Assembly (NCBI GenBank): GCA_017524545.1
Contig: JAFXVN010000027.1
Coordinates: 1-64,000, forward strand
Source of the DNA: Bacteroidaceae bacterium
GTDB taxonomy: Bacteria > Bacteroidota > Bacteroidia > Bacteroidales > Bacteroidaceae
DNA length: 64,000 nucleotides
Direction: 5' to 3'
Part shown: piece after piece, positions 3,581 through 59,689 of the stretch
Position numbering within the stretch: position 1 is the first letter of the stretch
Layout of the letters: every line of letters starts with the position of its first letter
Position numbers and translations under genes: made by a program
Notes under the pieces: generated by a model
The model's database searches: none
What the model was told of the DNA's origin: nothing
What the model saw: only the letters and a program-made list of their open reading frames with translations

Positions 3581-3610
3581 AATTCAAAATTTATAAATTC
3601 AAAATTCAAG
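3581..3610. repeat. A/T tandem repeat (about 7 nt, ATTCAAA type)
   Basis: AATTCAAAAT...AAATTCAAAATTCAAG fills the gap before the prfC start codon. It belongs to the class of locus-specific heptad repeats listed elsewhere here. Confidence 0.7.
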
Positions 3611-4124
3611 ATTGCTTTGCCTCTTCGCCGAGGCGGAGGAGGTCGCTGATAGGCTTCAGTGCTGCCTGAGTGCCTGCTGAGATTTCCTTGCCTTGCATAC
3701 GAAGCAAGGTGGCTCCGTAGAGGGCGTCGATGCAGTTCTCCATCTCATGCTTGTTCCTGTTGTTGCCTTGAGCTCGCAGGGCGACGATGTGGGGCAAGGC
3801 TTTGTAATAGGCGGCTTTGTAGTCGTGCTCGTCATTGTCGGCAAGAAGCTCCTGATGGTGGTCTTCGAGAAGGTCGAGGGTGTTCTGCACCACTCGGACG
3901 TGACCAGCTTCTTCCTTTCCCTCCTCGTGCATCATCCTTGCCAGAGACTCATACCATTCCTTGGCTTGTGCCAGTTGTTTCTCTTCGTAGCCGAAACGCG
4001 GCAGATACTCGGCGGCTATGCGGTCGGCATCAAAGCCGTAGGCACGCACCAAGTCCTCCACCTGATACATATATACAAGGTAGGCACTGACGCTTTGGCT
4101 TCTGAGTTTCTTAGCAACGTACAC
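3606..4124 (-). CDS. DUF4924 family protein
   Basis: 172-aa soluble protein, mostly helical by composition, with VSAYLVYMYQVEDLVRAY near the N-terminus, matching DUF4924, a Bacteroidetes family of unknown function. The start is GTG at 4124 with an ATTCAAA repeat just upstream, so the original start may have been altered. It lies between the LysE-type exporter and prfC in one leftward unit. No catalytic motif is evident. Confidence 0.8.
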   Translation of the reverse strand: MYVAKKLRSQSVSAYLVYMYQVEDLVRAYGFDADRIAAEYLPRFGYEEKQLAQAKEWYESLARMMHEEGKEEAGHVRVVQNTLDLLEDHHQELLADNDEHDYKAAYYKALPHIVALRAQGNNRNKHEMENCIDALYGATLLRMQGKEISAGTQAALKPISDLLRLGEEAKQS

Positions 4125-4133
4125 GGCTATGTT

Positions 4134-4163
4134 AATTCAAAATTATTAAATTCAAAATTCAAA
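4134..4163. repeat. A/T tandem repeat before the GTG start of the DUF4924 gene
   Basis: AATTCAAAATTATT followed by AAATTCAAAATTCAAA, period 7-8. It sits about 10 nt before the start codon at 4124. Confidence 0.65.
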
Positions 4164-4169
4164 TGGCTT

Positions 4170-4817
4170 TTATCTGAACAGCGTATAGAAGAACCCGACA
4201 CACGAGCCGACCATGACCAGCAGGCCAAGCAAGCGGTTGAGCAGGCTGATGGTGCTCATGTCGAATCGGGAACCAAGCTTGTTGAGCGCTGTCGTCAGGC
4301 AAAGCCACCAAACGATGGCACCCGTCAGTACGCCGGCATAGCCGATGGCCTGCTCCACATGATGGTCTGGCACGACAAAGCCGCATCGGGCAAAGAGTGC
4401 CAGGAAGAGGAAGATGATGAGCGGATTGCTGACGGTAATGGCAAAGCCCGTGAACATGTTGTGCCAAAGGCTGCCGCGCTTTCCGCTGGCTTTATGGGGA
4501 GGTGCCGGTTTCGTGTAGTAGGTGTATGCGCCGAAGCAGAAGAGCAGGATGCTGCCCAGGAGCTTGAGGTAGAGAATGGTGGTGGGTCGCTCTATGAAGT
4601 CCATCACGAAGCTCATGCCGAGGCCTGTTATCACGGCATAAAAGAGGTCGCTCGCCGCTGCTCCTATGCCTGTGGCAAAGCCAAACCAGCGCCCTTTGTT
4701 GAGGGTGCGCTGCACGGTCAGCACGCCGACGGGCCCCATCGGTGCGCTTGCCACAATTCCTACCACCATGCCTCTGACGGCAAGGTCGATGGCATTCACA
4801 GGTTCAATCCAAATCAT
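4170..4817 (-). CDS. LysE family amino-acid exporter
   Basis: About 215 aa from ATG 4817, six hydrophobic segments, with the LysE/RhtB hallmark VASAPMGPVGVLTVQRTLNKG near the N-terminus and GFAITVSNPLIIFLF in the middle. The family exports amino acids or related metabolites across the inner membrane; the substrate here cannot be read from sequence. A longer frame reaches 4868, but a -7 box at 4858-4865 overlaps it, so the start at 4817 is preferred. First gene of the LysE-DUF4924-prfC unit. Confidence 0.88.
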   Translation of the reverse strand: MIWIEPVNAIDLAVRGMVVGIVASAPMGPVGVLTVQRTLNKGRWFGFATGIGAAASDLFYAVITGLGMSFVMDFIERPTTILYLKLLGSILLFCFGAYTYYTKPAPPHKASGKRGSLWHNMFTGFAITVSNPLIIFLFLALFARCGFVVPDHHVEQAIGYAGVLTGAIVWWLCLTTALNKLGSRFDMSTISLLNRLLGLLVMVGSCVGFFYTLFR

Positions 4818-4857
4818 ATATGTAGGTGAAGCGTGAACACTTTTCCCAATTCGCCTG

Positions 4858-4865
4858 CAAAAATA
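4858..4865 (-). promoter_or_regulatory. -7 box for the LysE-DUF4924-prfC unit
   Basis: TATTTTTG on the minus strand, 40 nt before ATG 4817. Its position rules out the ATG at 4868 for transcripts from this promoter. Confidence 0.55.
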
Positions 4866-4918
4866 CAAAAAAAGATTAAATTCTTTGCCCTTCGCTCTTC
4901 ACTTTTCACTTTTTTTTG

Positions 4919-4926
4919 TACCTTTG
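4919..4926 (+). promoter_or_regulatory. -7 box for the ROK kinase gene
   Basis: TACCTTTG, 51 nt before the ATG at 4978. A TTCACTT heptad repeat (4896-4917) lies immediately upstream. Confidence 0.65.
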
Positions 4927-4977
4927 TGCAGAAACGAAGCAATTATTTCTGTCAAACAAATCAAATAATACACAATT

Positions 4978-5949
4978 ATGGACAAAGTTAAACCCTATGT
5001 AATTGGTGTGGACCTTGGTGGTACCAACACCGCATTCGGAGTTGTTAACGCTCGTGGCGAGGTCGTTGCAGAGAACAGCATCAAGACGCAGCAGTACAAG
5101 ACCGCTGAAGCTTTCGTAGAGGCAGGTGTGGCTTGCCTGAAGCCCCTGCTGGCACAGATTGGCGGAGCCGACCAGGTGCAGGGCATGGGCATCGGTGCGC
5201 CCAATGGCAACTACTACAACGGCACCATCGAGTTCGCCCCCAATCTTCCTTGGGCACACAACGGCATCGTTCCTCTTGCTGAGATGTTCCACGAAGCCAC
5301 AGGCATTCCCGTGAAGCTTACCAACGACGCCAACGCTGCGGCTGTGGGCGAAATGGCATACGGTGCAGCACGCGGCATGAAGAACTTCATCGTCATCACC
5401 CTGGGCACAGGTGTGGGCAGTGGTATCGTCATCAACGGACAGATTGTCTATGGCAGCGACGGCTTTGCTGGCGAGCTGGGTCACGTTATCATGGACCGCA
5501 CGGCGAAGGGTCGCAGCTGTGGCTGCGGCAGGACAGGTTGCTTGGAGGCTTACTGCTCTGCCACCGGCGTAGCACGCACAGCCCGCGAGATTCTTGCCAC
5601 TACCGACCGTCCCTCCCTGCTTCGCGACAAGCCCGCAGAGGAGTTGGAGTCGCTCGACGTCAGCATTGCAGCAGGCAAGGGCGATGAGGTTGCCAACGAG
5701 ATTTTCCAGTTCACAGGCAAGATGCTGGGTGAGGCTTGTGCCGACTTCGCAGCCTTCTCAAGCCCCGAAGCCTTTATCTTCTTCGGTGGCCTCTGCAAGG
5801 CAGGCGACTTGATTATGAAGCCCATCGAGGAGGCCTACAACAACGCCGTGCTCAAGATATTCAAGGGCAAGGCCAAGTTCTTGGTTTCCGGCTTGATGAA
5901 TGCCAATGCCGCTGTCCTCGGAGCAAGTGCTCTCGGATGGGAAGAATAG
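4978..5949 (+). CDS. ROK family sugar kinase, probable glucokinase
   Basis: 323 aa, standard ROK length. The N-terminal phosphate-binding motif is VDLGGTNTAFG, the sugar-binding segment LTNDANAAAVGE and the ATP motif TLGTGVGSG. The ROK zinc site is seen as GELGHVIM...CGCGRTGCLEAY. Such kinases phosphorylate glucose or related hexoses at C6 in the cytoplasm; glucose is the likeliest substrate, N-acetyl hexosamines are possible. Monocistronic, with its own -7 box and a strong terminator at 5983. Confidence 0.92.
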   Translation: MDKVKPYVIGVDLGGTNTAFGVVNARGEVVAENSIKTQQYKTAEAFVEAGVACLKPLLAQIGGADQVQGMGIGAPNGNYYNGTIEFAPNLPWAHNGIVPLAEMFHEATGIPVKLTNDANAAAVGEMAYGAARGMKNFIVITLGTGVGSGIVINGQIVYGSDGFAGELGHVIMDRTAKGRSCGCGRTGCLEAYCSATGVARTAREILATTDRPSLLRDKPAEELESLDVSIAAGKGDEVANEIFQFTGKMLGEACADFAAFSSPEAFIFFGGLCKAGDLIMKPIEEAYNNAVLKIFKGKAKFLVSGLMNANAAVLGASALGWEE

Positions 5950-5982
5950 GCTTTAGGAAAGAAACTTAGTCGATAAATACAG

Positions 5983-6033
5983 AAGGCCCCCTTCCGTTTC
6001 CTATAAGGAGATACGGGAGGGGGCCTTTTTTTT
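5983..6033 (+). terminator. intrinsic terminator after the ROK kinase
   Basis: AAGGCCCCCTTCCG pairs with CGGGAGGGGGCCTT, followed by a run of ten T. The stem is preceded by few A residues, so it mainly serves the rightward transcript. Confidence 0.9.
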
Positions 6034-6061
6034 ACATGTATTTTGGGTGTTAAGAGAAGGA

Positions 6062-9018: not shown

Positions 9019-10047
9019 TTAAAGTTCTGCGAAGTACTTGATGGTGCGAACCATCTGGCTGGTGTAGCTGTTCTCGTTGTCGTACCAGCTAACTACCTGT
9101 ACGAGGCTGTTGCCGTCGCCCATCTTGCTGACCATAGTCTGGTTAGCGTCGAAGAGGCTACCGAACTTCATGCCGATGATGTCGCTGCTGACGAGCTTCT
9201 CCTCGGTGTAGCCGAAGCTCTCGTTTGTAGCGGCCTTCATAGCAGCGTTGATGCCTTCAACAGTTACCTCACCCTTGACAACAGCGTGCAGGATGGTGGT
9301 GGAACCTGTGAATGTGGGAACGCGCTGGGCAGCGCCGATGAGCTTGCCGTTCAGTTCGGGAATTACGAGGCCGATAGCCTTGGCAGCACCTGTGCTGTTG
9401 GGAACGATGTTGGCAGCACCGGCACGAGCACGCTGCAGGTCGCCCTTGCGCTGAGGACCGTCGAGAATCATCTGGTCGCCAGTGTAAGCGTGAACAGTTG
9501 TCATGATACCGCTCTGGATGGGAGCGAAGTCGTTCAGAGCCTTTGTCATGGGAGCCAGGCAGTTGGTGGTGCAGCTGGCAGCGCTGATGACGGTGTCTTC
9601 CTTCTTCAGGGTCTTGTGGTTTACGTTGAAGACGATGGTGGGGAGGTCGTTGCCTGCGGGAGCTGAGATGACAACCTTCTTGGCACCAGCGGTCAGGTGT
9701 GCAGAAGCCTTCTCCTTGCTTGTGTAGAAACCAGTGCACTCCAAAACTACGTCAACACCGAGCTTGCCCCAAGGCAGTTCAGCAGCGTTGGGCACTGCAT
9801 AGATGGTAATCTCCTTACCGTCAACGATGATAGAGTTCTCTGTAGCCTCTACAGTGTGCTTGTTCTCGCCGAACTTGCCGCAGAAACCGCCCTGAGCGGT
9901 GTCATACTTCAGGAGGTGAGCCAGCATCTTGGGGCTGGTGAGGTCGTTGATAGCGACTACTTCATAACCTTCAGCCTCGAACATCTGACGGAAAGCGAGG
10001 CGACCGATACGGCCGAAACCGTTAATAGCGACTTTTACGTTTGCCAT
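9019..10047 (-). CDS. gapA: glyceraldehyde-3-phosphate dehydrogenase, type I
   Basis: 342 aa. The NAD-binding start is [16 protein letters not shown], the catalytic Cys lies in [11 protein letters not shown] (about residue 160), the [15 protein letters not shown] and [13 protein letters not shown] segments match GAPDH, and the C-terminus has [13 protein letters not shown]. Converts glyceraldehyde-3-phosphate to 1,3-bisphosphoglycerate in glycolysis. The Asp of AINDLTSP near residue 35 favours NAD over NADP. Read from a -7 box at 10241 through a tiny ORF (10129-10221). Confidence 0.97.
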
Positions 10048-10085: not shown

Positions 10086-10116
10086 TAGAATTTTGAATTT
10101 ATCGATTTTGAATTAT
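10086..10116. repeat. A/T tandem repeat upstream of gapA
   Basis: GAATTTTGAATTTATCGATTTTGAATT, period about 7-8, within the leader between the small ORF and gapA. Confidence 0.6.
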
Positions 10117-10248: not shown

Positions 10249-10257
10249 CGACAAAAA

Positions 10258-10289
10258 AGTGAAAAGTAAAAAGTGAAAAGTGAAAAATG
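10258..10289. repeat. heptad tandem repeat GTGAAAA
   Basis: Four or more units of GTGAAAA/GTAAAAA in tandem, just upstream of the gapA promoter. The complementary word TTCACTT recurs at 12606-12646 and 4896-4917. Confidence 0.75.
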
Positions 10290-10352: not shown

Positions 10353-10390
10353 TGCAGGAAATAATGTGAAAAAAGGAAGACAGCAAATAA

Positions 10391-10437
10391 ATTGTAAATA
10401 GTAAATTGTAAATAGTAAATTGTTAAATCGTAAATCA
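10391..10437. repeat. heptad tandem repeat GTAAATT in the mscL leader
   Basis: Six units of GTAAATT/GTAAATA/GTTAAATC in tandem, ending 8 nt before the mscL ATG. The same word occurs before the HU gene (28909) and rpsJ (47494). Confidence 0.8.
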
Positions 10438-10867: not shown

Positions 10868-10996
10868 GAAGTTAAAGAAGTTAATGAAGTTATGTGGCTT
10901 TCAGCCACGGAAGTTAAAGGACAATAGTCTTGCATCTTGGAACACTACAACCCAAAGTGTCGTCCTTTAACTTCCTTAACTTCCTTAACTTCCTCA
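10868..10996. repeat. hairpin of 9-nt words after mscL
   Basis: GAAGTTAAAGAAGTTAATG and GGAAGTTAAAGGAC on one side pair with GTCCTTTAACTTCC and CTTAACTTCCTTAACTTCC on the other, period 9. It ends 17 nt before the GH76 start and could end or process the mscL transcript. Confidence 0.7.
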
Positions 10997-12605: not shown

Positions 12606-12646
12606 AATAATTTTTCACTTTTCACATTTCACTTTTCACTTTTTGT
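12606..12646. repeat. heptad tandem repeat TTCACTT upstream of tRNA-Cys
   Basis: TTCACTT/TTCACAT units in tandem, ending at the -7 box. A second word, ATTGTAAATCGTCAAATTG, follows at 12688-12713, between promoter and tRNA. Confidence 0.7.
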
Positions 12647-12648: not shown

Positions 12649-12656
12649 TACCTTTG
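12649..12656 (+). promoter_or_regulatory. -7 box for tRNA-Cys
   Basis: TACCTTTG, 63 nt before the tRNA 5' end. Confidence 0.6.
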
Positions 12657-12718
12657 CACCGCAATTTGAGCGAAAGCAGTCAATCGAAAATTGTAAATCG
12701 TCAAATTGTAAATGTTTT

Positions 12719-12793
12719 GGTGCCTTGGATGAGTGGCTTAGTCAGTGGTCTGCAAAACCATGCACGGCGGTTCGAATCCGCCAGGCACCTCCA
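12719..12793 (+). tRNA. tRNA-Cys (GCA)
   Basis: The acceptor stem GGTGCCT pairs with AGGCACC, the anticodon loop is CTGCAAA (anticodon GCA), and the T arm is GGCGG-TTCGAAT-CCGCC. The discriminator base is T, the main identity base of tRNA-Cys, and CCA is encoded. The D arm was not resolved base by base. It is followed by a terminator, and metY, a sulfur assimilation gene, lies next. Confidence 0.95.
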
Positions 12794-13037: not shown

Positions 13038-14315
13038 ATGAAAAAGAACCTCGAAACCATCTGCATTCACGGCGGATGGAGGCCCAAGAAGGGCGAACCA
13101 CAGCAACTCCCCATCTACCAAAGTACAACATTCCGCTACGAGACGAGCGACCAGATGGCGCGTCTCTTCGACCTCAAGGACAGCGGCTACTTCTATACCC
13201 GCTTGGCCAACCCGACGAACGATGCCGTGGCACAGAAGATTGCCGCACTGGAAGGCGGTGTGGGTGCAGTGCTGACGAGCAGCGGACAGGCGGCGAACTT
13301 CTACGCCATCTTCAATATCTGTCAGGCTGGCGACCACTTCATCACTGCCAACACGATTTACGGCGGTACGTTCAACCTCTTTGGCGTGACGCTCAAGAAG
13401 CTGGGCATCGAATGCACTTTCATCGACCCCGATTGGGACGACGAGCGCATCGAGGCCTGTTTCCGTCCGAACACGAAATGCTTCTTCGGCGAGACCATCT
13501 CCAATCCCGGCTGCAACGTCTTCGACATTGAGCGCTTCGCCAAGATGGCGCACAAGCACGGCGTGCCTCTGATTGTTGACAACACCTTCGCCACCCCCAT
13601 CAACTGCCGCCCGTTCGAGTGGGGCTGCGACATCGTGACACACTCCACGACGAAGTACATGGACGGACACGCCACGCAGGTGGGCGGCGTAGTGGTGGAT
13701 AGCGGCAACTTCCCGTGGGACGACTATGCAGACAAGTTCCCCGGCCTCTGCACGCCCGACGAGTCTTATCACGGCCTCACCTACACCAAGGCTTTCGGCA
13801 AGATGGCTTACACCACCAAGCTTGTGGCCCAGCTGATGCGCGACCTCGGCAGCATCCCTGCTCCGCAGAACGCCTTCCTGCTCAACCTCGGCCTTGAGAC
13901 CCTGCACCTGCGAATGCCCCGCCATTGCGAGAACGCACAGAAGGTTGCCGAGTGGCTGGAGAAGAATCCGAAGGTGGGATGGGTGAACTATGCCGGCCTG
14001 CCCTCGAACAAATACTATGCTTTGGCTCAGAAGTACATGCCCGGCGGCACTTGCGGCGTGATTGCCTTCGGGCTGAAGGGCACGAAGGAGGAGGCCATCC
14101 GCTTCATGGACAACTTGGACTTCATCAGCATCGTGACGCACGTTGCCGATGCCCGCACCTGTGTGCTGCACCCCGCCAGCCATACGCACCGCCAGCTCAG
14201 CGACGAGCAGCTCCGCGAGGCAGGCATCGCGCCTGACTTGGTGCGCCTGAGCGTCGGCATCGAGAACATCGACGACATCATCGCCGACCTCGAGCAGGCA
14301 ATGGCGAAGATGTAG
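13038..14315 (+). CDS. metY: O-acetylhomoserine aminocarboxypropyltransferase / sulfhydrylase
   Basis: 425 aa PLP enzyme of the Cys/Met metabolism class. N-terminus ETICIHGGWRPKKGEPQQLP, substrate region YFYTRLANPTNDAVAQK, PLP lysine in THSTTKYMDGH (about residue 205), and the C-terminal HPASHTHRQLSDEQ and RLSVGIENIDDI motifs. It makes homocysteine from O-acetylhomoserine and sulfide in the cytoplasm. The frame is open upstream to 12591 through the tRNA gene, which cannot be coding; ATG 13038 follows the promoter and matches the family start. Confidence 0.95.
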   Translation: MKKNLETICIHGGWRPKKGEPQQLPIYQSTTFRYETSDQMARLFDLKDSGYFYTRLANPTNDAVAQKIAALEGGVGAVLTSSGQAANFYAIFNICQAGDHFITANTIYGGTFNLFGVTLKKLGIECTFIDPDWDDERIEACFRPNTKCFFGETISNPGCNVFDIERFAKMAHKHGVPLIVDNTFATPINCRPFEWGCDIVTHSTTKYMDGHATQVGGVVVDSGNFPWDDYADKFPGLCTPDESYHGLTYTKAFGKMAYTTKLVAQLMRDLGSIPAPQNAFLLNLGLETLHLRMPRHCENAQKVAEWLEKNPKVGWVNYAGLPSNKYYALAQKYMPGGTCGVIAFGLKGTKEEAIRFMDNLDFISIVTHVADARTCVLHPASHTHRQLSDEQLREAGIAPDLVRLSVGIENIDDIIADLEQAMAKM

Positions 14316-14318
14316 TCC

Positions 14319-14481
14319 ATAGCTCATAATTCATAGTTCATAATTCATAGTTCATAGTTGACTTCGTCGAGCTGAAGCTTCATAGTTGTGTGATGCAAGC
14401 TGGCTTTAACGTGCCTGCTCATCATAAATTTTCTTAATTCTTTCGCAACTATGAACTATGGACTATGAACTATGAACTATT
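14319..14481. repeat. inverted heptad arrays TTCATAG / CTATGAA
   Basis: TTCATAG/TTCATAA units (14322-14360) are answered by ACTATGA/ACTATGG units (14449-14481), so the two heptad arrays can pair into a long hairpin around about 85 nt. It lies after metY and immediately before the -7 box of the DUF4369 gene. Confidence 0.75.
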
Positions 14482-14486: not shown

Positions 14487-14494
14487 TATCTTTG
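14487..14494 (+). promoter_or_regulatory. -7 box for the DUF4369 gene
   Basis: TATCTTTG, 20 nt before GTG 14514. It overlaps the first codons of the longer frame from ATG 14472, which it therefore argues against. Confidence 0.6.
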
Positions 14495-14513: not shown

Positions 14514-15203
14514 GTGGTGAATAACAAACTATACTATCTGCTTTCAGCCGTTCTGCTGACGTTTGTCTCCTGCCAGAGCCAGTACATGGTGAGGGGTTCC
14601 TCCAATGTGGATGAACTGGAGGGAAAGATGCTGACGCTGAAGGTCTATGTCGATGGTGAGATGCAAAGCATCGACTCTACGCGAGTTGTGCACGGTCGCT
14701 TCAGCTTCGGCGGCGGCATGGACTCCACGATGCTTGCCAATGTCTTCCTCGGCAACCTGAGCATCATGCCCATTGTGCTGGAGGAGGGCGAGGTGAAGCT
14801 GCAAATCAACGAGTCGCAGCAAACGGCCTCCGGTACGCCGCTCAACGACACGTTATCCGGCTTCATCCAGCGCAAGACACAGCTCGACGCACGGATGGCA
14901 GAGCTGCCGCATCTGGAGTCGCAGATGATTATGGACGGCACGGACTACGACGACATCATGTTCGAGCTGGGCAAGCAGTCGAAACAGATAGCGGCCGAGA
15001 ACGACAAGCTTATCACCCGCTTCATACGCGCGAATTATAATAATGTATTAGGGCCGGGCATCTTTATGATTCTGACCAGCAGCCTGCCTTATCCCGTCCT
15101 CACCCCGCAGATAGAGGAAATCATCTTGAACGCTCCACCATACTTCCTCGGACATCCCTACGTCAAGAAGTATATTGAGGAAGCGAAGAAGAATGGGGAT
15201 TAG
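14514..15203 (+). CDS. DUF4369 domain lipoprotein
   Basis: About 229 aa from GTG 14514 (VVNNKLYYLLSAVL), with a lipoprotein signal ending TFVSC, Cys20. The DUF4369 module is a beta-rich domain of about 90 aa (YMVRGSSNVDELEGKMLTLK to LEEGEVKLQIN), followed by a helical region. In Bacteroidetes this domain is often the N-terminal half of thioredoxin-like lipoproteins; here no CxxC thioredoxin domain follows, so it is the short version. Role unknown. An ATG at 14472 is in frame but lies upstream of the -7 box. Confidence 0.8.
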   Translation: MVNNKLYYLLSAVLLTFVSCQSQYMVRGSSNVDELEGKMLTLKVYVDGEMQSIDSTRVVHGRFSFGGGMDSTMLANVFLGNLSIMPIVLEEGEVKLQINESQQTASGTPLNDTLSGFIQRKTQLDARMAELPHLESQMIMDGTDYDDIMFELGKQSKQIAAENDKLITRFIRANYNNVLGPGIFMILTSSLPYPVLTPQIEEIILNAPPYFLGHPYVKKYIEEAKKNGD

Positions 15204-15275
15204 GGATTAAAAGGATTAGAGATTAGTGATTAGGGATTACAATGTTTAATGTTCAACTTTCATCTTTCAATTTGT
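15198..15275. repeat. heptad repeat GATTAGG running into the start of plsC
   Basis: GATTAGG/GATTAAAAG/GATTAGA/GATTAGT units lead up to ATG 15242. Heptad-like words (ATGTTTA, ATGTTCA, ACTTTCA, TCTTTCA) continue through the first ten codons of the acyltransferase gene. Confidence 0.7.
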
Positions 15276-16027: not shown

Positions 16028-16051
16028 CATCCGACGGAGCTATTATATATA

Positions 16052-16138
16052 AACAACGGATTTCACGGATTACACGGATTTAAGCTATACTGATAGTCAG
16101 CAATAAGCTAATCCGTGTAATCCGTGAAATCCGTTGTT
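16052..16138. repeat. perfect 29-bp hairpin of 9-nt words, between convergent genes
   Basis: AACAACGGATTTCACGGATT continuing to ACACGGATT is matched exactly by the complement ending ATCCGTTGTT, with a loop of about 28 nt. The repeated word is CACGGATTA/T. It lies between plsC (right) and the VWA gene (left), where it can form on either transcript. Same design and outer bases as 1867-1954. Confidence 0.85.
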
Positions 16139-17395: not shown

Positions 17396-17637
17396 TTTGT
17401 TTTGATGTTTTGGGGGTTGTTTTGGTTTTTTTACTAAATCGTCGGCAAATTAACAATTTTATGCAATAATGTGCAAATGTTTGGCAAAGAAAATGGTCGT
17501 GCGTGCGCAAAAAAGCACAAAAAAGCATAATAACAAAGGGAACAGACTCTTCCGTCGCAAGGCATGAAATTCTTTTTTGCACAGCACAAAAATCCGCGCG
17601 GCACGTTATAAAAGTCTGCGTGGCACGTTATAAAGTT

Positions 17638-17721
17638 ATTTTCAAGGCTTGATAATATATTTTCACGCCTTGATAATATATTTTCAAACCTTGAAAATAT
17701 ATTTCCAAGCCTTGAAAATAG
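17638..17721. repeat. 21-bp tandem repeat, four units
   Basis: Units begin ATTTTCAAGGCTTGATAATA and vary at a few bases; each contains CAAGG...CCTTG-like symmetry. The units are directly adjacent, so this is not a CRISPR array. An upstream pair of GGCACGTTATAAA units shows a similar unit-with-variation pattern. Confidence 0.8.
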
Positions 17722-21097: not shown

Positions 21098-21105
21098 CAA
21101 AGATA
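21098..21105 (-). promoter_or_regulatory. -7 box for the GH98 gene
   Basis: TATCTTTG on the minus strand, 25 nt before the start at 21072. Divergent from the box at 21150. Confidence 0.65.
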
Positions 21106-21110: not shown

Positions 21111-21145
21111 TAATTCAAAATCCTAAATTCAAAATTCAGAATTAT
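21111..21145. repeat. heptad A/T repeat between divergent promoters
   Basis: TAATTCAAAATCCTAAATTC then AAAATTCAGAATT, directly before the rightward -7 box. A second A/T word follows at 21181-21201, ending 5 nt before the GTG start. Confidence 0.65.
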
Positions 21146-21206: not shown

Positions 21207-24200
21207 GTGACTCTAAAAGATACTTCCTTCGTGGACCTGATGCTCAACCGCGTCTATAACGTGCTGCTCATTGCCAATCCCTACGATGCCTTCATGCTCG
21301 AAGACGACGGGCGCGTCGATGAGAAGATATTCTCGGAATATGCCAAGCTCGGACTTCGCTTCCCGCCGCGTTTCCTGCAAGTGCACAGCCGGGAAGAGGC
21401 CGAGCAGACGATGGCCGGGGGGCATGTGAACCTCGTCATCGTGATGCCAGCGGCCGAAGACAACTCTGTGTTCGACATCGCTCGCGAAATCAAGCAGGAG
21501 TACCCCACGACGCCAATCGTGGTGCTCACGCCCTTTAGCCACGGCATCACGAAGCGTATGCAGAACGAGGACCTGAGTGCCTTCGAGTATGTCTTCTGCT
21601 GGTTGGGCAACACGGAGTTGCTGCTCTCCATCATCAAACTGATGGAGGACCGCATGAACCTGGAGCACGACATACGTTCGGCGGGCGTGCAGATGCTGCT
21701 TGTCGTGGAAGACGGCATCCGCTTCTATTCGAGCATCCTGCCCACACTCTACAAGTTTGTCCTGCAACAGAGTCTGGAGTTCGCCACCGAAGCTCTCAAC
21801 ACGAGCCTCGAGATGCTGCGCATGAGGGGAAGGCCCAAAATCGTGCTGGCTCGCAATTACGAAGAGGCGTGGCTGCTCTACAACCGCTTTGCCGACAACA
21901 CGCTCGGAGTCATCAGCGACTGCCGCTTCCCCATGACGCATGGAGGCGCGAAGGTGGCGGATGCCGGCTTCAAGCTGCTCAGTGCCATCCGTGCCAGCGA
22001 CCCCTACGTGCCTCTCATTCTCGACTCGAGCGAGACGGAGAATGAAAGGCTGGCAAGGGAATGCCACGCCAGCTTTATCGATAAGAACTCGAAGAAGATT
22101 GACGTGGACCTGCGCGACCACCTGCGCGACTACTTCGGCTTCGGCGACTTCATCTTCCGCGACCCCGACACGATGGAGGAGGTGGCACGCCTGCACAACC
22201 TGAAGGACTTGCAGGACAATATCATGACGCTGCCCACGCGAAGCCTGCTCTACCACATCTCCCACAACAATGTGAGCCGCTGGCTTGCCAGCCGTGCCCT
22301 CTTCCCCATATCGGAATTTCTGAAGCGTATCACCTGGGACAGCCTGCAGGACGTGGATGCCCACCGTGCCATCATCCTCGATGCCATCGTTGCCTACCGA
22401 AGGATGAAGAACCAGGGCGTGGTGGCGGTCTTTCAGAGAGAACGCTTCGACCAGTACAGCAACTTTGCCCGCATCGGCGAGGGCAGTTTGGGAGGCAAGG
22501 GACGCGGCCTCGCCTTCATCGACCACCTATTGGGACGGCACACCGACCTCAACGAGCGGGAGGGCGTCACCGTCCGCATCCCCAAGACCGTCGTGCTCTG
22601 TACAGACATCTTCGACGAGTTCATGGACACCAACGACCTCTACCAGACGGCGCTCAGCAGCATCCCCGACGAAGAGATACTCCAGCACTTCCTTCGCGCC
22701 CGACTTCCCATGCGGCTCGTCGGCGACATGGAAGCCTTCCTCGATGTCGTCGATGGCCCCATCGCAATCCGCTCCAGCAGCCTTCTCGAGGACTCGCACT
22801 ACCAGCCGTTCGCCGGTGTCTATAGCACCTACATGATTCCTGCGGCGCACGACCGCTACGAACGCCTCTCCATGCTCTCGGAAGCAATTAAGGCCGTCTA
22901 TGCCAGTGTCTTCTACCAGAGCAGCAAGGACTACATGACAGCCACCAGCAACGTCATCGACCAGGAGAAGATGGCCGTCATCCTGCAAGAGGTGGTGGGC
23001 GAGGAGCACAACGGCAGGTTCTACCCCGTCATCAGCGGTGTGGCTCGCAGCATCAACTACTATCCCATCGGCGACGAGAAAGCCGAGGAGGGAACCGTCT
23101 CTTTGGCAATGGGACTTGGCAAGTACATCGTCGATGGCGGCACGAGCCTTCGCGTCTGCCCCGCCCACCCGCATCAGGTCTTGCAGATGAGCGAGATGGA
23201 GATTGCCCTTCGCGACACGCAGACGCACTTCCTGGCCTTGAGAGCCCAAAGCTCGGAGGAGGCCGGAAGCATGAGCGTCGATGATGGCTTCAACCTCATC
23301 AAAGTGCCTGTTCGCGAAGCGGAGAAAGACGGTACCCTGCAATGGATATGCTCTACCTACGACCCCTTCGACCAATGCATCTACGACGGCTTCTACGAAG
23401 GACGTAACCGCAAAATCATCTCCTTTGCCGGTGTCCTGCAGAACGACATCTTCCCCTTGGCAGAGCTGATGCGTAAAGCCCTGCAATACGGTCAGGACGA
23501 GATGAAGCGGCCTGTCGAGATAGAGTTTGCCGTCAATCTTCATGCCGACCGCACCGGCGAGTTCTGCCTCCTGCAGATACGTCCGATGGTCGATAACCGT
23601 ATGGAGCTCGATGAAGACCTCACCGCTGTTCCCGACGAGGACTGCCTCTTGCGCTCGCACAGTGCCATCGGCCACGGCATCTACACCGACATCCAGGACA
23701 TCGTCTATGTCAAGACTGACGGCTACTCGCCCAGCAACAATCCAGCGATAGCCGAGGAGATAGAGCGCATCAACCGCACATTCCTGGAAGACCCCTCTAA
23801 ATCTCCCCTTAAAGGGGAGACTTCCGGTGCAGCGTGCCCCCTCCCTTTAAGGGAGGGCTGGGGTGGGTCCTCTTATTTGCTCATCGGCCCCGGGCGATGG
23901 GGCAGCAGCGACCCCTGGCTGGGCATTCCCGTCAAGTGGCCGCAAATCAGTGCCGCGCAGGTCATCGTGGAGGCAGGACTCGACAGCTTCCAGGTTGACC
24001 CGAGCCAAGGCACCCACTTCTTCCAGAACCTCACCTCCCTTGGCGTCTGCTACCTGACCATCAACGCCTTCCGTGGCGACGGCATCTACCGACAGGAAGT
24101 CCTCGCAGGGCTGCCCGCCGTCCAGGAGACAGAGCACGTCCGCCACGTCCGCTTGCCCCAGCCCCTCACCATCAAAGTCGATGGCAGCAAGAAGGAAGCG

Positions 24201-24224
24201 GTGGTTTGTTCAATTCAAAATTGA
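21207..24224 (+). CDS. PEP-synthase-like ATP-grasp protein with two receiver-like domains
   Basis: 1005 aa, GTG start. Residues about 15-150 fold like a response-regulator receiver but have VIVMPAAED where the phosphoacceptor Asp is expected. A second receiver-like segment (210-325) keeps GVISDCRFP. A pyruvate-phosphate-dikinase-type ATP-grasp domain follows (GEGSLGGKGRGLAF, AIRSSSLLEDS). The His-bearing swivel domain of true PEP synthases is not seen, so PEP synthesis is unlikely. The C-terminal part has LLIGPGRWGSSDPW. Residues about 863-888 are encoded by an in-frame palindromic element (23791-23872). Confidence 0.8.
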   Translation: MTLKDTSFVDLMLNRVYNVLLIANPYDAFMLEDDGRVDEKIFSEYAKLGLRFPPRFLQVHSREEAEQTMAGGHVNLVIVMPAAEDNSVFDIAREIKQEYPTTPIVVLTPFSHGITKRMQNEDLSAFEYVFCWLGNTELLLSIIKLMEDRMNLEHDIRSAGVQMLLVVEDGIRFYSSILPTLYKFVLQQSLEFATEALNTSLEMLRMRGRPKIVLARNYEEAWLLYNRFADNTLGVISDCRFPMTHGGAKVADAGFKLLSAIRASDPYVPLILDSSETENERLARECHASFIDKNSKKIDVDLRDHLRDYFGFGDFIFRDPDTMEEVARLHNLKDLQDNIMTLPTRSLLYHISHNNVSRWLASRALFPISEFLKRITWDSLQDVDAHRAIILDAIVAYRRMKNQGVVAVFQRERFDQYSNFARIGEGSLGGKGRGLAFIDHLLGRHTDLNEREGVTVRIPKTVVLCTDIFDEFMDTNDLYQTALSSIPDEEILQHFLRARLPMRLVGDMEAFLDVVDGPIAIRSSSLLEDSHYQPFAGVYSTYMIPAAHDRYERLSMLSEAIKAVYASVFYQSSKDYMTATSNVIDQEKMAVILQEVVGEEHNGRFYPVISGVARSINYYPIGDEKAEEGTVSLAMGLGKYIVDGGTSLRVCPAHPHQVLQMSEMEIALRDTQTHFLALRAQSSEEAGSMSVDDGFNLIKVPVREAEKDGTLQWICSTYDPFDQCIYDGFYEGRNRKIISFAGVLQNDIFPLAELMRKALQYGQDEMKRPVEIEFAVNLHADRTGEFCLLQIRPMVDNRMELDEDLTAVPDEDCLLRSHSAIGHGIYTDIQDIVYVKTDGYSPSNNPAIAEEIERINRTFLEDPSKSPLKGETSGAACPLPLREGWGGSSYLLIGPGRWGSSDPWLGIPVKWPQISAAQVIVEAGLDSFQVDPSQGTHFFQNLTSLGVCYLTINAFRGDGIYRQEVLAGLPAVQETEHVRHVRLPQPLTIKVDGSKKEAVVCSIQN
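23791..23872. repeat. palindromic G/C element inside a coding sequence
   Basis: ATCTCCCCTTAAAGGGGAGA and CCCTCCCTTTAAGGGAGGG form two strong hairpins, bounded by GACCCCTCT and GGGTGGGTCC. The element stays in frame and encodes about 26 extra residues (from SKSPLKGETSG) just before LLIGPGRWG. Its TCTCCCC...GGGGAGA...AGAGGGG order recurs in the sialidase gene. Confidence 0.8.
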
Positions 24225-24240
24225 TAAATTCAAAATTCAA
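24211..24240. repeat. heptad ATTCAAA repeat over a stop and near a start
   Basis: CAATTCAAAATTGATAAATT and CAAAATTCAA contain the stop codon of the 21207 gene (its last residues SIQN are repeat-coded) and end 5 nt before the TTG start of the YhcG gene. Confidence 0.7.
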
Positions 24241-24245
24241 AGGCA

Positions 24246-27488: not shown

Positions 27489-27525
27489 AAGGTAAAAAAG
27501 TAAAAAGCTTGCTACCGCCTAAACT

Positions 27526-27555
27526 TTTGAATTTATAAATTTTGAATTTTGAATT
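27526..27555. repeat. heptad TTTTGAA repeat overlapping the rimO start
   Basis: TTTTGAATTTATAAATTTTG and AATTTTGAATTG: the presumed TTG start of rimO (27549) is itself part of the repeat. Confidence 0.75.
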
Positions 27556-28856: not shown

Positions 28857-28868
28857 ATGCCTAAATAA

Positions 28869-28906
28869 TAAATTGTAAATAGTAAATCGTCAAATAGTAA
28901 ATGGTA
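28869..28906. repeat. heptad GTAAATA repeat before the HU gene
   Basis: AATTGTAAATAGTAAATCGT, CAAATAGTAAATGG: five units ending 3 nt before the ATG at 28909. Confidence 0.75.
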
Positions 28907-28908
28907 AG

Positions 28909-29190
28909 ATGAATAGCAAAGAATTTATCTCCAGCTTGGCGAACCGCACGGGCAAGAGCAACAAGGAAGTGTCATCGCTGGTCAGTGCCACCGTCTCCGC
29001 CATTATCAGTGAGCTTGCGGAAGAGAACTCGGTAGCCATTTCCGGCTTCGGCACCTTCGAGGTCAAGAAAAAGCTGGAGCGGGTGCTGGTCAATCCCATC
29101 ACCAAGCAGCGTATGCTCGTCCCGCCAAAAATAGTCGTCAGCTTCAAACCCAATGCTTCGCTTAAAATGAAAATGAACAGTGAAAGGTGA
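28909..29190 (+). CDS. HU family DNA-binding protein
   Basis: 93 aa, standard HU/IHF size. N-terminal helices MNSKEFISSLANRTGKSNKE, saddle strand AISGFGTFEVKKK and the beta-arm tip region ending VNPITKQRMLVPPK. Binds and bends DNA as a dimer. It lies directly before the HU-LysM gene; rimO is 52 nt upstream, so the three may be co-transcribed. Confidence 0.93.
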   Translation: MNSKEFISSLANRTGKSNKEVSSLVSATVSAIISELAEENSVAISGFGTFEVKKKLERVLVNPITKQRMLVPPKIVVSFKPNASLKMKMNSER

Positions 29191-32961: not shown

Positions 32962-33050
32962 TTAAACCACGAATTGCACGAATTACACGAATTATTCCAC
33001 GCTGTCAAGGGCGTAGCCAATTCGTGTAATTCGTGCAATTCGTGGTTAAA
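32962..33050. repeat. 32-bp hairpin of 9-nt words, between convergent genes
   Basis: ACCACGAATTGCACGAATTA continuing to CACGAATT is answered by its complement to 33050 with one or two mismatches at the outer end. The word is CACGAATTA. The loop contains GTCAAGGGCGTAGCC, whose complement resembles GGTTACGCCCTTGATG at 17776-17791. Confidence 0.85.
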
Positions 33051-40052: not shown

Positions 40053-41078
40053 CTACCTCCCTTCGCAGAGCCTGCGGGCGATGTCGTTCAGAGCCAAGCA
40101 TTGGCCGCGGCGGATAGTGAGTTGTTCGTTGTGGTGCTCCCACGGAGCAAGGATGAGGAGCTGTCCTCTGGCGCAGGCCTCCATGCGGCTGCCGCCGGGT
40201 TTGGCAAGGTCGGTGAAGCCGTTCTCCTGCAGGTAAACAAGCGGAAGGCCAGCGTCGAAGGCAGCCCGCATGACAGCTTTCTCGCCGGGCGAGATGGCTG
40301 GCGAGACGAGCACAGCACCCTGCCTTGCAGCGGAGAGGCACTCCTGCACCTTGGCCGCTATCTCCTTTTCGGTGAGGCTGCGCGAGCATTGCACTTGCAA
40401 GCGGAAGGGGCGGTCGAGCAGGAAGCGGTTGCCGATGGCTGAAAAGGTGAAGCCTGCTGCCTGGACGTTGCGCTGCACGCGAAACAGGTCGGGATGCTCG
40501 CGTTTCATCAAGAGGCGGCGTGGGTTGTCGGTGAGATAGTGCAGCCATGTGTCGAGCTGCCCACTGCGGAGCAGGAGCTTGTCGTTGTAGCCTCGGGCAA
40601 AGAGCAAGCCGTGGCTGCGGTCTTCACCGCTGCGGTCTTGTTTTGTTTGTTGCGTTGGCAACGCAACATACGGAACCAGCTCCCGATAGTGCCGGTTGCA
40701 GCTTTGCTTGAAGCCGCGAAGCGCCATGCCGAGGGGCTTTTCCATCTTTTCCCTCACAAAGAGGATGCCGTGCAAGTGGTCGGGCATCATCTGAAGGGCA
40801 ATGACTTCTATCTCAGGATGGTGGAGCGATGTCGCCCACCATTCGTCGGCCACTCGTTGCCCCAGCTCCGAAAGCACGATGTGCGGCTCCTGTGGGCTGC
40901 CTTCCTGTGCCTCGCTTCTGCCCACGACTTGTCCAAAGAGCGGACGGCGGCCCTCGGTCACCATCGTAATCATGTATATCTGGCGGCCTGTGTAGTCGTG
41001 CCCCACGCAACGGCGAAGCATGGAGGGCTTCTTCTCGCCAGCAAAGGCTCTCTGGGCCTCGAAGGTTTCTTGGGTCAT
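40053..41078 (-). CDS. REP-associated Y1 transposase (RAYT-like) with C-terminal extension
   Basis: 341 aa from ATG 41078 (MTQETFEAQRAFAGEKKPS). The Y1 transposase fold is indicated by the HUH motif MPDHLHGILFV and a likely catalytic Tyr in FARGYNDKLLLR. A C-terminal part of about 140 aa (AVLVSPAISPGEKAVMRAAF, LLILAPWEHH, CLALNDIARRLC) is not part of standard Y1 enzymes and looks like a Rossmann-type, DprA/LOG-like fold. The frame contains an in-frame REP palindrome at 40637-40676 (PYVALPTQQTKQDRSGEDR region). No IS ends or second ORF are seen, so it fits a domesticated RAYT. Confidence 0.85.
   Translation of the reverse strand: MTQETFEAQRAFAGEKKPSMLRRCVGHDYTGRQIYMITMVTEGRRPLFGQVVGRSEAQEGSPQEPHIVLSELGQRVADEWWATSLHHPEIEVIALQMMPDHLHGILFVREKMEKPLGMALRGFKQSCNRHYRELVPYVALPTQQTKQDRSGEDRSHGLLFARGYNDKLLLRSGQLDTWLHYLTDNPRRLLMKREHPDLFRVQRNVQAAGFTFSAIGNRFLLDRPFRLQVQCSRSLTEKEIAAKVQECLSAARQGAVLVSPAISPGEKAVMRAAFDAGLPLVYLQENGFTDLAKPGGSRMEACARGQLLILAPWEHHNEQLTIRRGQCLALNDIARRLCEGR
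40637..40676. repeat. REP palindrome inside the RAYT gene
   Basis: CTTGTTTTGTTTGTTGCGTT followed by GGCAACGCAACATACGGAAC. The core GTTGCGTTG/CAACGCAAC is a near-perfect palindrome. The 40 bases match the copy at 41129-41169 with about two differences. Confidence 0.85.
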
Positions 41079-41107
41079 GTTTGTTGTGGCTTTTGGGTGC
41101 AAGTAGG

Positions 41108-41169
41108 CTTGTTTTGTGTGTTGCGTTGGCTTGTTTTGTGTGTTGCGTTGCCAACGCAACATACGGAAC
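41108..41169. repeat. REP elements upstream of the RAYT gene
   Basis: A partial copy CTTGTTTTGTGTGTTGCGTT (41108) directly precedes a complete copy (41129-41169) with palindrome GTTGCGTTGCCAACGCAAC. Both lie in the leader between promoter and start codon. Confidence 0.85.
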
Positions 41170-47452: not shown

Positions 47453-47488
47453 CAAATAGCAAATAGTAAATCGTTAAATCGTAAATTA
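47453..47488. repeat. heptad GTAAATC repeat before rpsJ
   Basis: CAAATAGCAAATAGTAAATC and GTTAAATCGTAAATTAC, ending 5 nt before the rpsJ ATG. The same word class precedes mscL and the HU gene. Confidence 0.75.
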
Positions 47489-47493: not shown

Positions 47494-47799
47494 ATGAGTC
47501 CAAAGATTAGAATCAAACTGAAGTCTTACGACCACAATCTGGTTGACAAATCCGCAGAGAGGATTGTTAAGACTGTAAAGGAAACAGGTGCTGTAGTAAG
47601 CGGTCCCATTCCCCTGCCCACACGCAAGAGAATCTTCACCGTCAACCGCTCCACATTCGTCAACAAGAAGAGCCGTGAGCAGTTCGAGCTGAACAGCTAC
47701 AAGCGCCTCGTTGACATCCACAGCTCCAGCGAAAAGACTATCGACGCCCTCATGAAGCTCGAACTTCCCAGCGGCGTAGAGGTGGAGATTAAGGTGTAA
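47494..47799 (+). CDS. rpsJ: ribosomal protein uS10
   Basis: 101 aa with the NusE loop [20 protein letters not shown] and C-terminal [11 protein letters not shown]. Also acts as the NusE antitermination factor. First gene of the S10 cluster; tuf, often found here in other phyla, is absent. Confidence 0.97.
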
Positions 47800-52605: not shown

Positions 52606-52607
52606 TT

Positions 52608-58091: not shown

Positions 58092-58108
58092 GAAATAGTC
58101 ACCAGCGG

Positions 58109-58894
58109 ATGATTTTTCTTAAGACAGAAGACGAGATAGAATTAATGCGAGCTGCCAACCAGCTTGTTGCCAAGACACTGGCCGAAGTGGGGAAATATGT
58201 CAGGCCAGGTGTCACGACAAAGGAGTTGGATAGGGTAGCGGATGAATACATACGCGACAATGGTGGGGTGCCAACCTTCAAGGATTTCCCCAATCCCTGT
58301 GGGGGCACACCATTCCCAGCGTCGATTTGCACCTCGGTCAATGACGTAGTGGTGCATGGTGTCCCCAATGACACGCCGTTAGCGGACGGAGATATCGTGT
58401 CGGTGGACTGTGGAGTGCTTCTGAATGGTTTCAACGGCGATTCTTGCTACACGTTCCGTGTCGGTGAGGTTTCGGATGAAGTTGCTCAGTTGCTCGATGT
58501 CACGAAAAAAGCCCTCTATGAGGGTATTGCCAGTGCCCAGCAGGGCAAGCGCATCGGCGACATCAGTTCTGCGGTACAGACACTCTGCGAGTCTCATGGC
58601 TACGGAGTTGTTCGCGAGTTCGTCGGTCATGGCATAGGACGCAAGATGCATGAGGATCCTCAGGTACCCAACTATGGGAGAAAGGGAAACGGCCCGATGA
58701 TAAAGAGCGGCCTCTGCATTGCGATTGAGCCTATGATAACGATGGGAAGTCCGAAAGTCTATATGACGGAGGACAACTGGACTATCAGGACACGCGACGG
58801 CAAACCGTCGGCTCACTTCGAGCATACGATTGCGGTACATAAAGGTAAAGTGGAGATTCTTTCTTCCTTCGAAGATATAGAAAAGGCAAATTAA
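58109..58894 (+). CDS. map: methionine aminopeptidase, type I
   Basis: 261 aa. The pita-bread fold carries metal ligands in DGDIVSVDCGVLLNGFNGDS (two Asp), the His in FVGHGIGRKMHEDPQVPNYG and two Glu in IEPMI and FEHTIAV. Removes the initiator Met of nascent proteins. The PxxP zinc-ribbon extension of some forms is absent. 17 nt after secY. Confidence 0.96.
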   Translation: MIFLKTEDEIELMRAANQLVAKTLAEVGKYVRPGVTTKELDRVADEYIRDNGGVPTFKDFPNPCGGTPFPASICTSVNDVVVHGVPNDTPLADGDIVSVDCGVLLNGFNGDSCYTFRVGEVSDEVAQLLDVTKKALYEGIASAQQGKRIGDISSAVQTLCESHGYGVVREFVGHGIGRKMHEDPQVPNYGRKGNGPMIKSGLCIAIEPMITMGSPKVYMTEDNWTIRTRDGKPSAHFEHTIAVHKGKVEILSSFEDIEKAN

Positions 58895-58900
58895 ACGAAT

Positions 58901-59119
58901 ATGGCAAAACAAGCTGTTATAGAACAAGACGGTGTAATTGTGGAGTCGCTTTCAAATGCGATGTTCCGTGTTGAGCTTGAGATTGGTCAGAAGATTATCT
59001 GCAACATCTCCGGCAAGATGAGGATGCATTACATCAAGATACTTCCAGGCGACAAGGTCAAGGTAGAGATGAGTCCGTATGACCTGACGAAGGGACGTAT
59101 CGTATTCAGATATAAATAA
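58901..59119 (+). CDS. infA: translation initiation factor IF-1
   Basis: 72 aa S1/OB fold: [20 protein letters not shown] and [20 protein letters not shown]. Six nt after map. Confidence 0.97.
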
Positions 59120-59129
59120 AAACATCAAT

Positions 59130-59246
59130 ATGAAAACAAGAGCTTCTTTGAAAAAACGCACTCCTGACTGCAAGATTGTACGTCGCAAGGGTCGTTTGTA
59201 TGTTATTAACAAGAAAAACCCCAAGTACAAGATGCGCCAGGGTTAG
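59130..59246 (+). CDS. rpmJ: ribosomal protein bL36, zinc-free form
   Basis: 38 aa: [20 protein letters not shown], then [18 protein letters not shown]. Only one of the four zinc ligands of the usual C+ form remains, so it is a zinc-independent variant. Confidence 0.95.
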
Positions 59247-59275
59247 TATTATTGCAAACAAGAAAAGTATAGTAT

Positions 59276-59656
59276 ATGGCAATTAGAATTGTTGGTGTAG
59301 ATTTGCCTCAGAACAAGCGAGGCGAAATCGCTTTGACCTATATATTCGGTATAGGTCGCAGTAGCTCTGCCAAGATCCTGGAAAAGGCTGGCGTAGATAA
59401 GGACAAGAAGGTTACCGACTGGACCGACGACGAGGCAGGCAAGATTCGTGAGATTATCGGTGCCGAGTATAAGGTAGAGGGTGACCTCCGCTCTGAGATT
59501 ACGATGAACATCAAGCGTCTGATGGATATCGGCTGTTATCGTGGAGTTCGTCATCGTAATGGTCTTCCTGTGCGTGGTCAGAGCACAAAGAATAATGCCC
59601 GCACACGTAAGGGTAAGAAGAAGACTGTTGCAAACAAGAAAAAGGCCACTAAGTAA
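59276..59656 (+). CDS. rpsM: ribosomal protein uS13
   Basis: 126 aa: [20 protein letters not shown] and the helix-turn-helix region [20 protein letters not shown], with a Lys-rich tail. Start of the alpha cluster. Confidence 0.97.
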
Positions 59657-59689
59657 TTGAAAGTTGACAATTGAAAATTGAAATTTGAT
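59655..59689. repeat. heptad TTGAAAA repeat between rpsM and rpsK
   Basis: ATTGAAAGTTGACAATTG, AAAATTGAAATTTGAT: units TTGAAAG, TTGACAA, TTGAAAA, TTGAAAT in tandem, directly abutting the rpsK ATG. Confidence 0.75.

Follow-up and report, generated by a model that had tools for sequence, protein, structure and literature searches.

The window analysed here is a stretch of 64,000 nucleotides from a Bacteroidaceae bacterium (assembly GCA_017524545.1, contig JAFXVN010000027.1, positions 1 to 64,000 of the forward strand), whose gaps between genes hold tandem arrays of heptanucleotide words. A tandem heptamer is present at every coordinate that an earlier note on this sequence had named, and the window contains 22 period-7 rows at a score of at least 30. 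Judged by position, the arrays take a promoter form, a leader form and a gene-end form (Table 1); the promoter class and the stop or stem-loop class were absent from the earlier note.

Period-7 arrays in the genome and its relatives

We counted arrays in the window together with 40 further stretches of 20 kb (864 kb, 24% of the 3.6-Mb genome, which is in 85 contigs), a sample that comprises 615 genes, 465 gaps of at least 15 nt (117.8 kb in total) and 732 kb of coding sequence. The sample of relatives consists of the best 80 of 259 loci (1.32 Mb), among which the closest named relatives are Bacteroidaceae and Prevotellaceae metagenome-assembled genomes (MAGs), mostly of rumen origin or from the guts of other herbivores. 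All gene calls come from a home-made program based on codon usage, and arrays were counted at a Tandem Repeats Finder score of at least 36, period-14 arrays being excluded from the period-7 counts. Comparisons use one genome per species, and some gaps of the relatives are orthologous, so that their counts are partly non-independent.

The gaps of the own-genome sample hold 91 period-7 arrays, compared with 0.2 in dinucleotide shuffles, and those of the relatives hold 81, again compared with 0.2, which bears out the genome-wide excess that the earlier note had proposed. At least one array is found in 77 of the 465 gaps, and 23 arrays lie in coding sequence. Period 9 ranks second (45 arrays vs 0.8 shuffled), and no other period between 4 and 13 exceeds 15 arrays. 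Most arrays have 3 to 4.9 units, often spanning 30–35 nt, and the commonest whole copy number is 4, both in the own genome (50/91) and in the relatives (50/81). The density per 10 kb of gap ranges from 0.91 to 7.24 in five other genomes of the genus, the top value, that of genome G360, being inflated by one 1.7-kb gap that holds half of its arrays, and is 0.37 and 0.41 in two other genera of the family.

Position of the arrays relative to promoter boxes, stop codons and start codons

Each counted array was re-placed 300 times within its own gap. A −7 box, a start codon or a stop codon lies within 12 nt of 74 of the 91 own arrays, compared with 29.2 after random placement (maximum 41), and of 53 of the 81 arrays of the relatives (22.3 random, maximum 33). 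The Bacteroidetes sigma-ABfr promoter has the elements TTTG (−33) and TAnnTTTG (−7) (PMC7366714, PMC6847099), and the latter is found 2–12 nt past the array end, on either strand, in 28/91 own arrays (3.8 random, maximum 10) and 28/81 arrays of the relatives (5.0 random, maximum 13); eight altered box motifs, used as controls, gave 0–2 of 91 and 0–4 of 81. Stop codons lie within 12 nt of 27 own arrays (15.0 random, maximum 21) and 19 arrays of the relatives (9.5 random, maximum 17).

For start codons the corresponding values are 27 own arrays (17.1 random, maximum 26) and a non-significant 14 in the relatives (11.5 random, maximum 19). Taken over all words, proximity to start codons is weak in the own genome, and a placement directly before start codons describes only some of the arrays. 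At four of the sites given as examples of it (10258, 12606, 14449 and 21111) a promoter −7 box lies downstream, not a start codon, and the ATG at 14472 is inside the array at 14447..14480. One class of arrays, chiefly the 33-nt element described below, does keep a set distance from the start codon that follows.

The promoter form

By its position, the promoter form occupies the −33 region of a sigma-ABfr promoter, ends mostly 5–6 nt before the −7 box (16 of the 28 own promoter arrays) and agrees in phase with the base composition seen in native promoters. It is represented in the window at 4898, 10255 (−), 12612, 14447 and 21112, the last being two-sided, an arrangement seen in 2/28 own promoter arrays and 1/28 of the relatives. 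From the sequence, the array and box at 10255..10286 (−) are likely the promoter of the GAPDH gene. A length of 30–35 nt is found in 40/56 promoter arrays vs 45/116 arrays of other classes.

The phase was assessed with a matrix built from boxes without a counted array in the own genome and the relatives, a set that may still include weaker arrays. When the array is rotated by 1–6 nt, the mean matrix score at 30 own sites drops from 2.04 to values between −1.63 and −6.34, and at 29 sites of the relatives it drops from 1.16 to values between −0.84 and −5.65; the true phase scores best at 17/30 and 17/29 sites, respectively. The second promoter element is lacking: TTTG at −26..−19 occurs in 0/30 own array promoters vs 27% of 196 others, and in 6.9% of the 29 array promoters of the relatives. 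In Flavobacterium johnsoniae, too, the −33 TTTG could not be identified (PMC7366714). The array may provide RNA polymerase with a T-tract-rich substitute for TTTG.

With the pattern TTTTCACTTTTCACTTTT, 1–8 free bases and TANNTTTGC, the TTTTCAC promoter was found at 91 sites in 23/101 genomes of the genus, 16 of the sites in the own genome, with a spacer of 5 at 76 sites and 6 at 15. Across the order only the own genome matched (1/295; 0/294 others). Three exact units of the bare word occur in 16/294 other genomes of the order (reversal yields the same repeat, which makes a reversed control useless), and in the TTTTCAC arrays of other families a −7 box within 12 nt downstream was present in 0/20 stretches from eight genomes, one of the stretches stopping at a contig edge. 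The word thus exists elsewhere in the order without the box, and its use in promoters belongs, in these samples, to the genus. Among the matches listed in the open-licence literature, no heptamer arrays in Bacteroidetes promoters are reported.

The loci L169–L188, from other Bacteroidales families, hold TTTTCAC arrays of up to 16 units (L188) together with other heptad words, and three-unit matches are patchy within one genus (1 in G034, 0 in G152, 25 in G250).

A separate strong signal is the spacing of divergent promoters in 10.4-bp steps; phased divergent promoters in Bacteroidetes are not reported among the matches listed in the open-licence literature. For same-strand gene pairs, the AT content upstream of TAnnTTTG boxes oscillates with 10.4–10.5 bp from −40 to about −120. 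The normalised peak is 13.4 in the own genome, 12.5 in the relatives and 21.3 in five other genomes of the genus (all gap types); random anchors give 6.8 at the 95% level and a maximum of 9.6 in 200. The oscillation was not seen in smaller samples from other genera and families, with peaks of 5.3, 4.8 and 3.5 at other periods.

The leader form

The leader form is chiefly one 33-nt element, AAATNGTAAATNGTAAATNGTCAAATNGTAAAT, made of AAATNGT units in a 7-7-7-8-7 architecture, which by position stands in sense, mostly 6–7 nt before a start codon or overlapping it. The own genome has 157 matches at up to two mismatches. In 68 of these, each of the 29 fixed positions agrees with the pattern, and variation is seen at the four N positions. 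Searching with the pattern reversed gives 1 match, and patterns with the 8-nt unit in second or third place give 3 and 6. The element is present in 46/61 genomes of the genus (0 to 157 copies each) and in 2/119 genomes across the order, namely the own genome and one with a single two-mismatch match.

Of the 60 copies examined, 37 have a start codon in sense and 1 in antisense. Forty of these are the non-overlapping sample copies at up to three mismatches (41 before overlapping copies were merged): 24 have a start codon in sense, compared with 13% for a random gap point, at distances of −2, 6 and 7 nt (seven copies each) and 4, 5 and 9 nt (once each); 8 clearly and 4 possibly lie in coding sequence; 1 precedes tRNA-Cys and 3 lie elsewhere. 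Read in antisense, one of the 40 has a start codon at such a place. In 20 further perfect copies, a start codon in sense follows 13 (7 nt in 6, 6 nt in 2, and −2 to 5 in five others), with 0 in antisense, 2 in coding sequence and 5 in other positions. Before tRNA-Cys, the element of the window recurs in L049, L050, L059, L062, L064 and L073 and is absent from L052 and L058.

The earlier note had suggested that the repeat forms an unstructured leader that may affect initiation. Folding energies at the start do not bear this out: array-bearing starts average −4.05 kcal/mol (n=31) and the others −7.48 (n=385), and array-free starts with an AT content of at least 0.7 fold alike (−4.12, n=140), so AT content is enough. 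The leader form, chiefly the 33-nt element, may serve as an A-rich landing site for ribosomes or an RNA-binding protein on mRNA without a Shine-Dalgarno sequence.

The eight clear coding copies lie in proteins with a C-terminal motif YDLSGRK..GIYI and translate in one frame as VNSKSSNSK or similar. The motif, YDLSGRK..GIYI.DGKK in its longer version, is one that we take to be type IX secretion-like, and it matched no family model; comparison of five proteins with NCBIfam (E ≤0.01) and of their last 99 residues with Pfam (E ≤1) gave no type IX C-terminal sorting domain. In-frame copies of the element and of other heptad words occur in the C-terminal linkers of large proteins (VNSKSSNSK, VNGKWLNGK, IHNSQFIIHN), at L026:13444-13530 and L022:12969-13001 and in L138, L141 and L027.

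The gene-end form

By position, the gene-end form begins at or just after a stop codon, and in some gaps it has an inverted right arm as its partner, placed ahead of the next promoter. The stop codon can belong to the array, as with the TAG within TTCATAG at 14313-14315. For the pair test, period-7 and period-14 arrays were pooled; among 28 neighbouring pairs, the two arrays repeat one word in inverted orientation in 10 (6.6% of random pairs) and in direct orientation in 1 (5.2% of random pairs). A reverse-complement partner is present in the gap of 18/91 arrays, compared with 1.2 expected. Several orthologous gaps have GC-rich hairpins in place of the inverted arrays, which suggests a role of the latter in termination; this form, which often supplies the stop codon, may thus also end transcription. 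Concerted evolution of the two arms, considered in eight species, found no clear support, with mean scores of 26.6 (left-right within species), 24.5 (left-right between species) and 28.3 (left-left between species).

Vocabulary and exchange of words

The 91 own arrays use 27 words, compared with about 75 for AT-matched random words, and form 204 same-word pairs where 18.9 are expected; 14 words are common to the relatives. The commonest are AAAAGTG, AATTATG, AACTATG and AAAGTTG, and few contain GG (GATTAGG is one). The view that unrelated words stem from one mechanism is therefore half right, as the words are not arbitrary. In the own genome and the relatives together, the G-richer strand is coding after stops (22/31) and the C-richer strand at promoters (43/53), and arrays before starts are mixed (17 G-rich, 20 C-rich, 3 equal). 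The dominant word of G360, AAAATGC (6/12 arrays), was not used as evidence because five of the six arrays lie in the one 1.7-kb gap.

Word and unit number vary between species at one and the same gap, as had been expected. One promoter with conserved flanks and equal length has TTTTCAC units in L059 and ATTTCCT units in L049. Divergent −7 boxes stand 63 bp apart in five orthologues, three with an array (L068, L074, L075) and two without (L080, L094). Orthologues of the promoter at 12612 also occur with and without an array, and in the alignment the array-less L052 and L058 lack 21 nt, which indicates that the exchange is not always length-neutral. The mscL leader, built of AAATNGT units in the window, has TTAAACY in L049 and L059, TTAATTC in L064 and no clear array in L052, L058, L060 and L061. 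In syntenic gaps (protein identity of at least 90%), species pairs, which are non-independent, share a word in 21 cases, differ in word in 16, have an array on one side in 52 and on neither in 258.

Table 1 Heptamer arrays of the window and what lies beside them
Position	Strand	Array	Setting
3581..3613	−	AATTCAA on + (TTGAATT on gene strand)	6 nt before ATG of RF3 gene 1976-3574(−); overlaps 3′ end of gene called 3606-4070(−)
4134..4163	−	Same 7-8-7-7 family as 3581 array	Just past stop of gene at 4170 (−)
4898..4913	+	Promoter form, TTCACTT; short, under counting score	5 nt before −7 box TACCTTTG at 4919; upstream of ROK-family gene 4978-5949
10088..10114	−	AATTCAA family	Leader of GAPDH gene 9019-10047(−), 40 nt from start
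10255..10286	−	Promoter form, TTTTCAC on −	6 nt before −7 box TATCTTTG, 10248-10241 (−)
10388..10435	+	Leader form	33-nt element 10403-10435, 1 mismatch; 9 nt before mscL ATG (10445)
12612..12643	+	Promoter form, TTTTCAC	5 nt before −7 box TACCTTTG at 12649
12681..12713	+	33-nt AAATNGT element, 2 mismatches	5 nt before tRNA-Cys (12719-12793)
14313..14359	+	Left arm, TTCATAG	Begins at stop (14313-14315) of Cys/Met metabolism gene
14447..14480	+	Right arm, ACTATGA, reverse complement of left arm	6 nt before −7 box TATCTTTG at 14487
15196..15239	+	GATTAG(G)	Fills 38-nt gap before ATG at 15242
21112..21143	.	Two-sided promoter form	6 nt from divergent −7 boxes, 21098-21105 (−) and 21150 (+)
24212..24241	+	AATTCAA	Spans stop of gene called 21240-24224
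27525..27555	+	TTTTGAA	Overlaps TTG start called at 27549 (true start uncertain)
28862..28907	+	Leader form	Perfect 33-nt element 28870-28902; 6 nt before ATG at 28909
47453..47486	+	Leader form	33-nt element 47454-47486, 2 mismatches; 7 nt before ATG at 47494; after EF-G gene
59655..59688	+	TTGAAAA	Fills gap from stop at 59656 to ATG at 59690

In the gap at 15196, the stretch from stop to start, both codons counted, is at most 10 nt in 13/20 relatives.

Other repeats

Periods 21 and 22 are likewise in excess in the own-genome sample (30 arrays vs 0.2). A 21-bp array with near-palindromic units TATTTTCAAGCCTTGAAAATA lies at 17637-17720, with a similar array in the gap L018:16252-16508. Period-9 inverted repeats around a loop (16056-16134, 32968-33044 and 10868-10994; ACGGATT.../...AATCCGT) are placed past stop codons or between convergent genes, and diverged copies of the repeat near 16050 occur at other places in the genome. 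A perfect 22-bp direct duplication, GGCTTGTTTTGTGTGTTGCGTT, is found at 41106-41150, close to where the gene called 40053-41162(−) has its 5′ end.

Discussion

The dispersed heptanucleotide arrays of cyanobacteria, the short tandemly repeated repetitive (STRR) sequences, resemble those described here, and we know of no register of STRR sequences to a promoter box or an ATG. A tandem unit of 7 nt and a mainly intergenic location are shared with STRR-like and TAACTGA-like repeats alike; three Calothrix heptanucleotides are mentioned in PMC4692102. The statement that no function of such heptamers is known in Bacteroidetes stands, but TAACTGA direct repeats have been published from five Bacteroidetes, besides Beggiatoaceae and some cyanobacteria (PMC4679880). 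These are also tandem and mostly intergenic, many end a few nt before a start codon in forward orientation, their distribution across species is patchy, and in two related cyanobacteria they differ mostly by indels in 7-nt steps (PMC4679880). Forward placement before starts is seen here for the 33-nt element and is weak for all words taken together. The TAACTGA system has one word, in contrast to the 27 words here, from which TAACTGA is absent, and we know of no association with promoters, no fixed architecture of 33 nt and no class of inverted arms in that system (PMC4679880).

The heptamers GGGAATC and GGGGA(C/T)T of Xanthomonas and Nostoc are similar in their preference for four units and their overlap with stop codons, and often lie between the same genes in two species with length and sequence changed (PMC4692102). 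Their strand preference is matched here at stops and promoters, whereas before starts the strands are mixed, and divergent gaps, which they under-use, hold shared promoters here (PMC4692102). They are G-rich and form quadruplexes in vitro (PMC4692102), whereas the common words here are A/T-rich without the G-tract in each unit, so the four-unit preference needs a cause other than quadruplexes. Compared with the sigma-ABfr promoter, the array promoters share the −7 element just past the array and differ in the missing −33 TTTG. Heptamer repeats as such are known already; their register at promoters and the 33-nt element appear to be new.

The reading that we favour, and consider rather probable, is that the arrays are heptad cis-elements held by position inside the expression signals of a rumen Bacteroidaceae genus. 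Selection would keep the position, the phase and, at promoters, the length of an array, while the word would be exchanged from a small vocabulary by a copying process, perhaps aided by 7-bp slippage. Several observations weigh against this reading. Proximity to start codons is weak for all words in the own genome and non-significant in the relatives, and 17/91 own arrays are at none of the three landmarks. The TTTTCAC promoter was not matched in 78/101 genomes of the genus, many of them incomplete, G360 has many arrays with only 1/12 near a box, and in other families the TTTTCAC word forms longer arrays without a −7 box within 12 nt downstream. TTTTCAC fits the native T frequency, as derived from 463 boxes in array-free gaps, only modestly: over −6..−40 the correlation is 0.29, against 0.36 when shifted by one nt and −0.40 to 0.25 in the remaining phases, and over −41..−54 it is −0.29. 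The copies of the 33-nt element in coding sequence and before tRNA-Cys are not explained by a leader function alone, and the case as a whole is one of positional statistics, drawn from a MAG whose genes were called by a home-made program.

Alternatively, an enzyme may have inserted or converted a sequence of about 33 nt at many sites, as a short mobile or copied element, and retained where it is harmless, in leaders, gene ends and C-terminal linkers. The 157 copies of one sentence, their range of 0 to 157 across the 61 genomes of the genus, the single two-mismatch match in 118 genomes outside it and, in L026, the two in-frame copies within a single C-terminal region speak for this explanation, which we regard as possible, if doubtful. 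Nothing beyond the array is held in common: with period-7 and period-14 arrays pooled, the masked flanks of 20/90 array gaps share sequence with another gap, vs 66/353 array-free gaps, and a classical mobile element of the type of miniature inverted-repeat transposable elements or repetitive extragenic palindromes was rejected on this ground. Moreover, promoter arrays are replaced in place at constant length, and random insertion does not predict sense placement 6–7 nt before an ATG. The sense orientation and preferred distance, together with the fixed positions and free N bases of the AAATNGT skeleton, would suit an RNA- or DNA-binding regulator that reads the 7-nt register, such as the S1, Csp and Csr proteins proposed for the TAACTGA repeats of Beggiatoaceae. 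We find this unlikely, given that the mscL leaders of L049 and L059 use another word, so that no single sequence is required, and that copies also lie in coding sequence.

Neutral simple-sequence repeats, arising by polymerase slippage in 7-bp steps and placed where tolerated, would account for the differences in unit number between orthologous arrays and for the change of three of four units at the same unit position between L068/L075 and L074; a heptamer excess in bacteria has been explained by the polymerase footprint (Mrazek et al. 2007, as cited in PMC4692102). The 5–6-nt spacer and phase preference at −7 boxes, the small common vocabulary, the 7-7-7-8-7 architecture fixed across 157 copies and a copy number that peaks at 4, not at the minimum, make this distinctly improbable. 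Slippage acting separately at each site does not explain a commonest leader family that is a single fixed 33-nt sentence, and on this ground, together with the vocabulary, local slippage was rejected as the sole cause. Phase-variable repeats in other bacteria act in promoters and leaders, the very places that the arrays occupy, and slippage could in principle shift the unit number and hence promoter spacing or leader length. The units are imperfect and the copies few, however, the identified genes beside the window arrays are mostly housekeeping ones (GAPDH, RF3, mscL, EF-G, tRNA-Cys), and box spacing is constant in the five species compared, so that such switches seem highly improbable.

In its boldest version, which we put forward quite tentatively, the positional reading becomes a modular heptad code for gene boundaries in a Bacteroidales genus without Shine-Dalgarno sequences. 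T-rich heptads in register with the −7 box would replace the −33 element, the (AAAUNGU) leader of 33 nt and some 157 copies, with one free base per heptad, would be a mark 6–7 nt before the AUG that is recognised by the ribosome or a protein, and inverted heptads would close the transcript, the elements having spread through word copying and not through slippage at each site.

To our knowledge, the heptamer repeats of cyanobacteria, Beggiatoaceae and Xanthomonas have no established function. The register of the arrays to the promoter box and the start codon gives heptamer repeats a testable one, and the preference for four units in mostly A/T-rich words argues against quadruplexes as its general reason. 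Translation starts in Bacteroidetes are not marked by Shine-Dalgarno sequences, and the 33-nt leader, present 157 times and with a preferred distance to the start codon, is a direct candidate for a start mark in this phylum.

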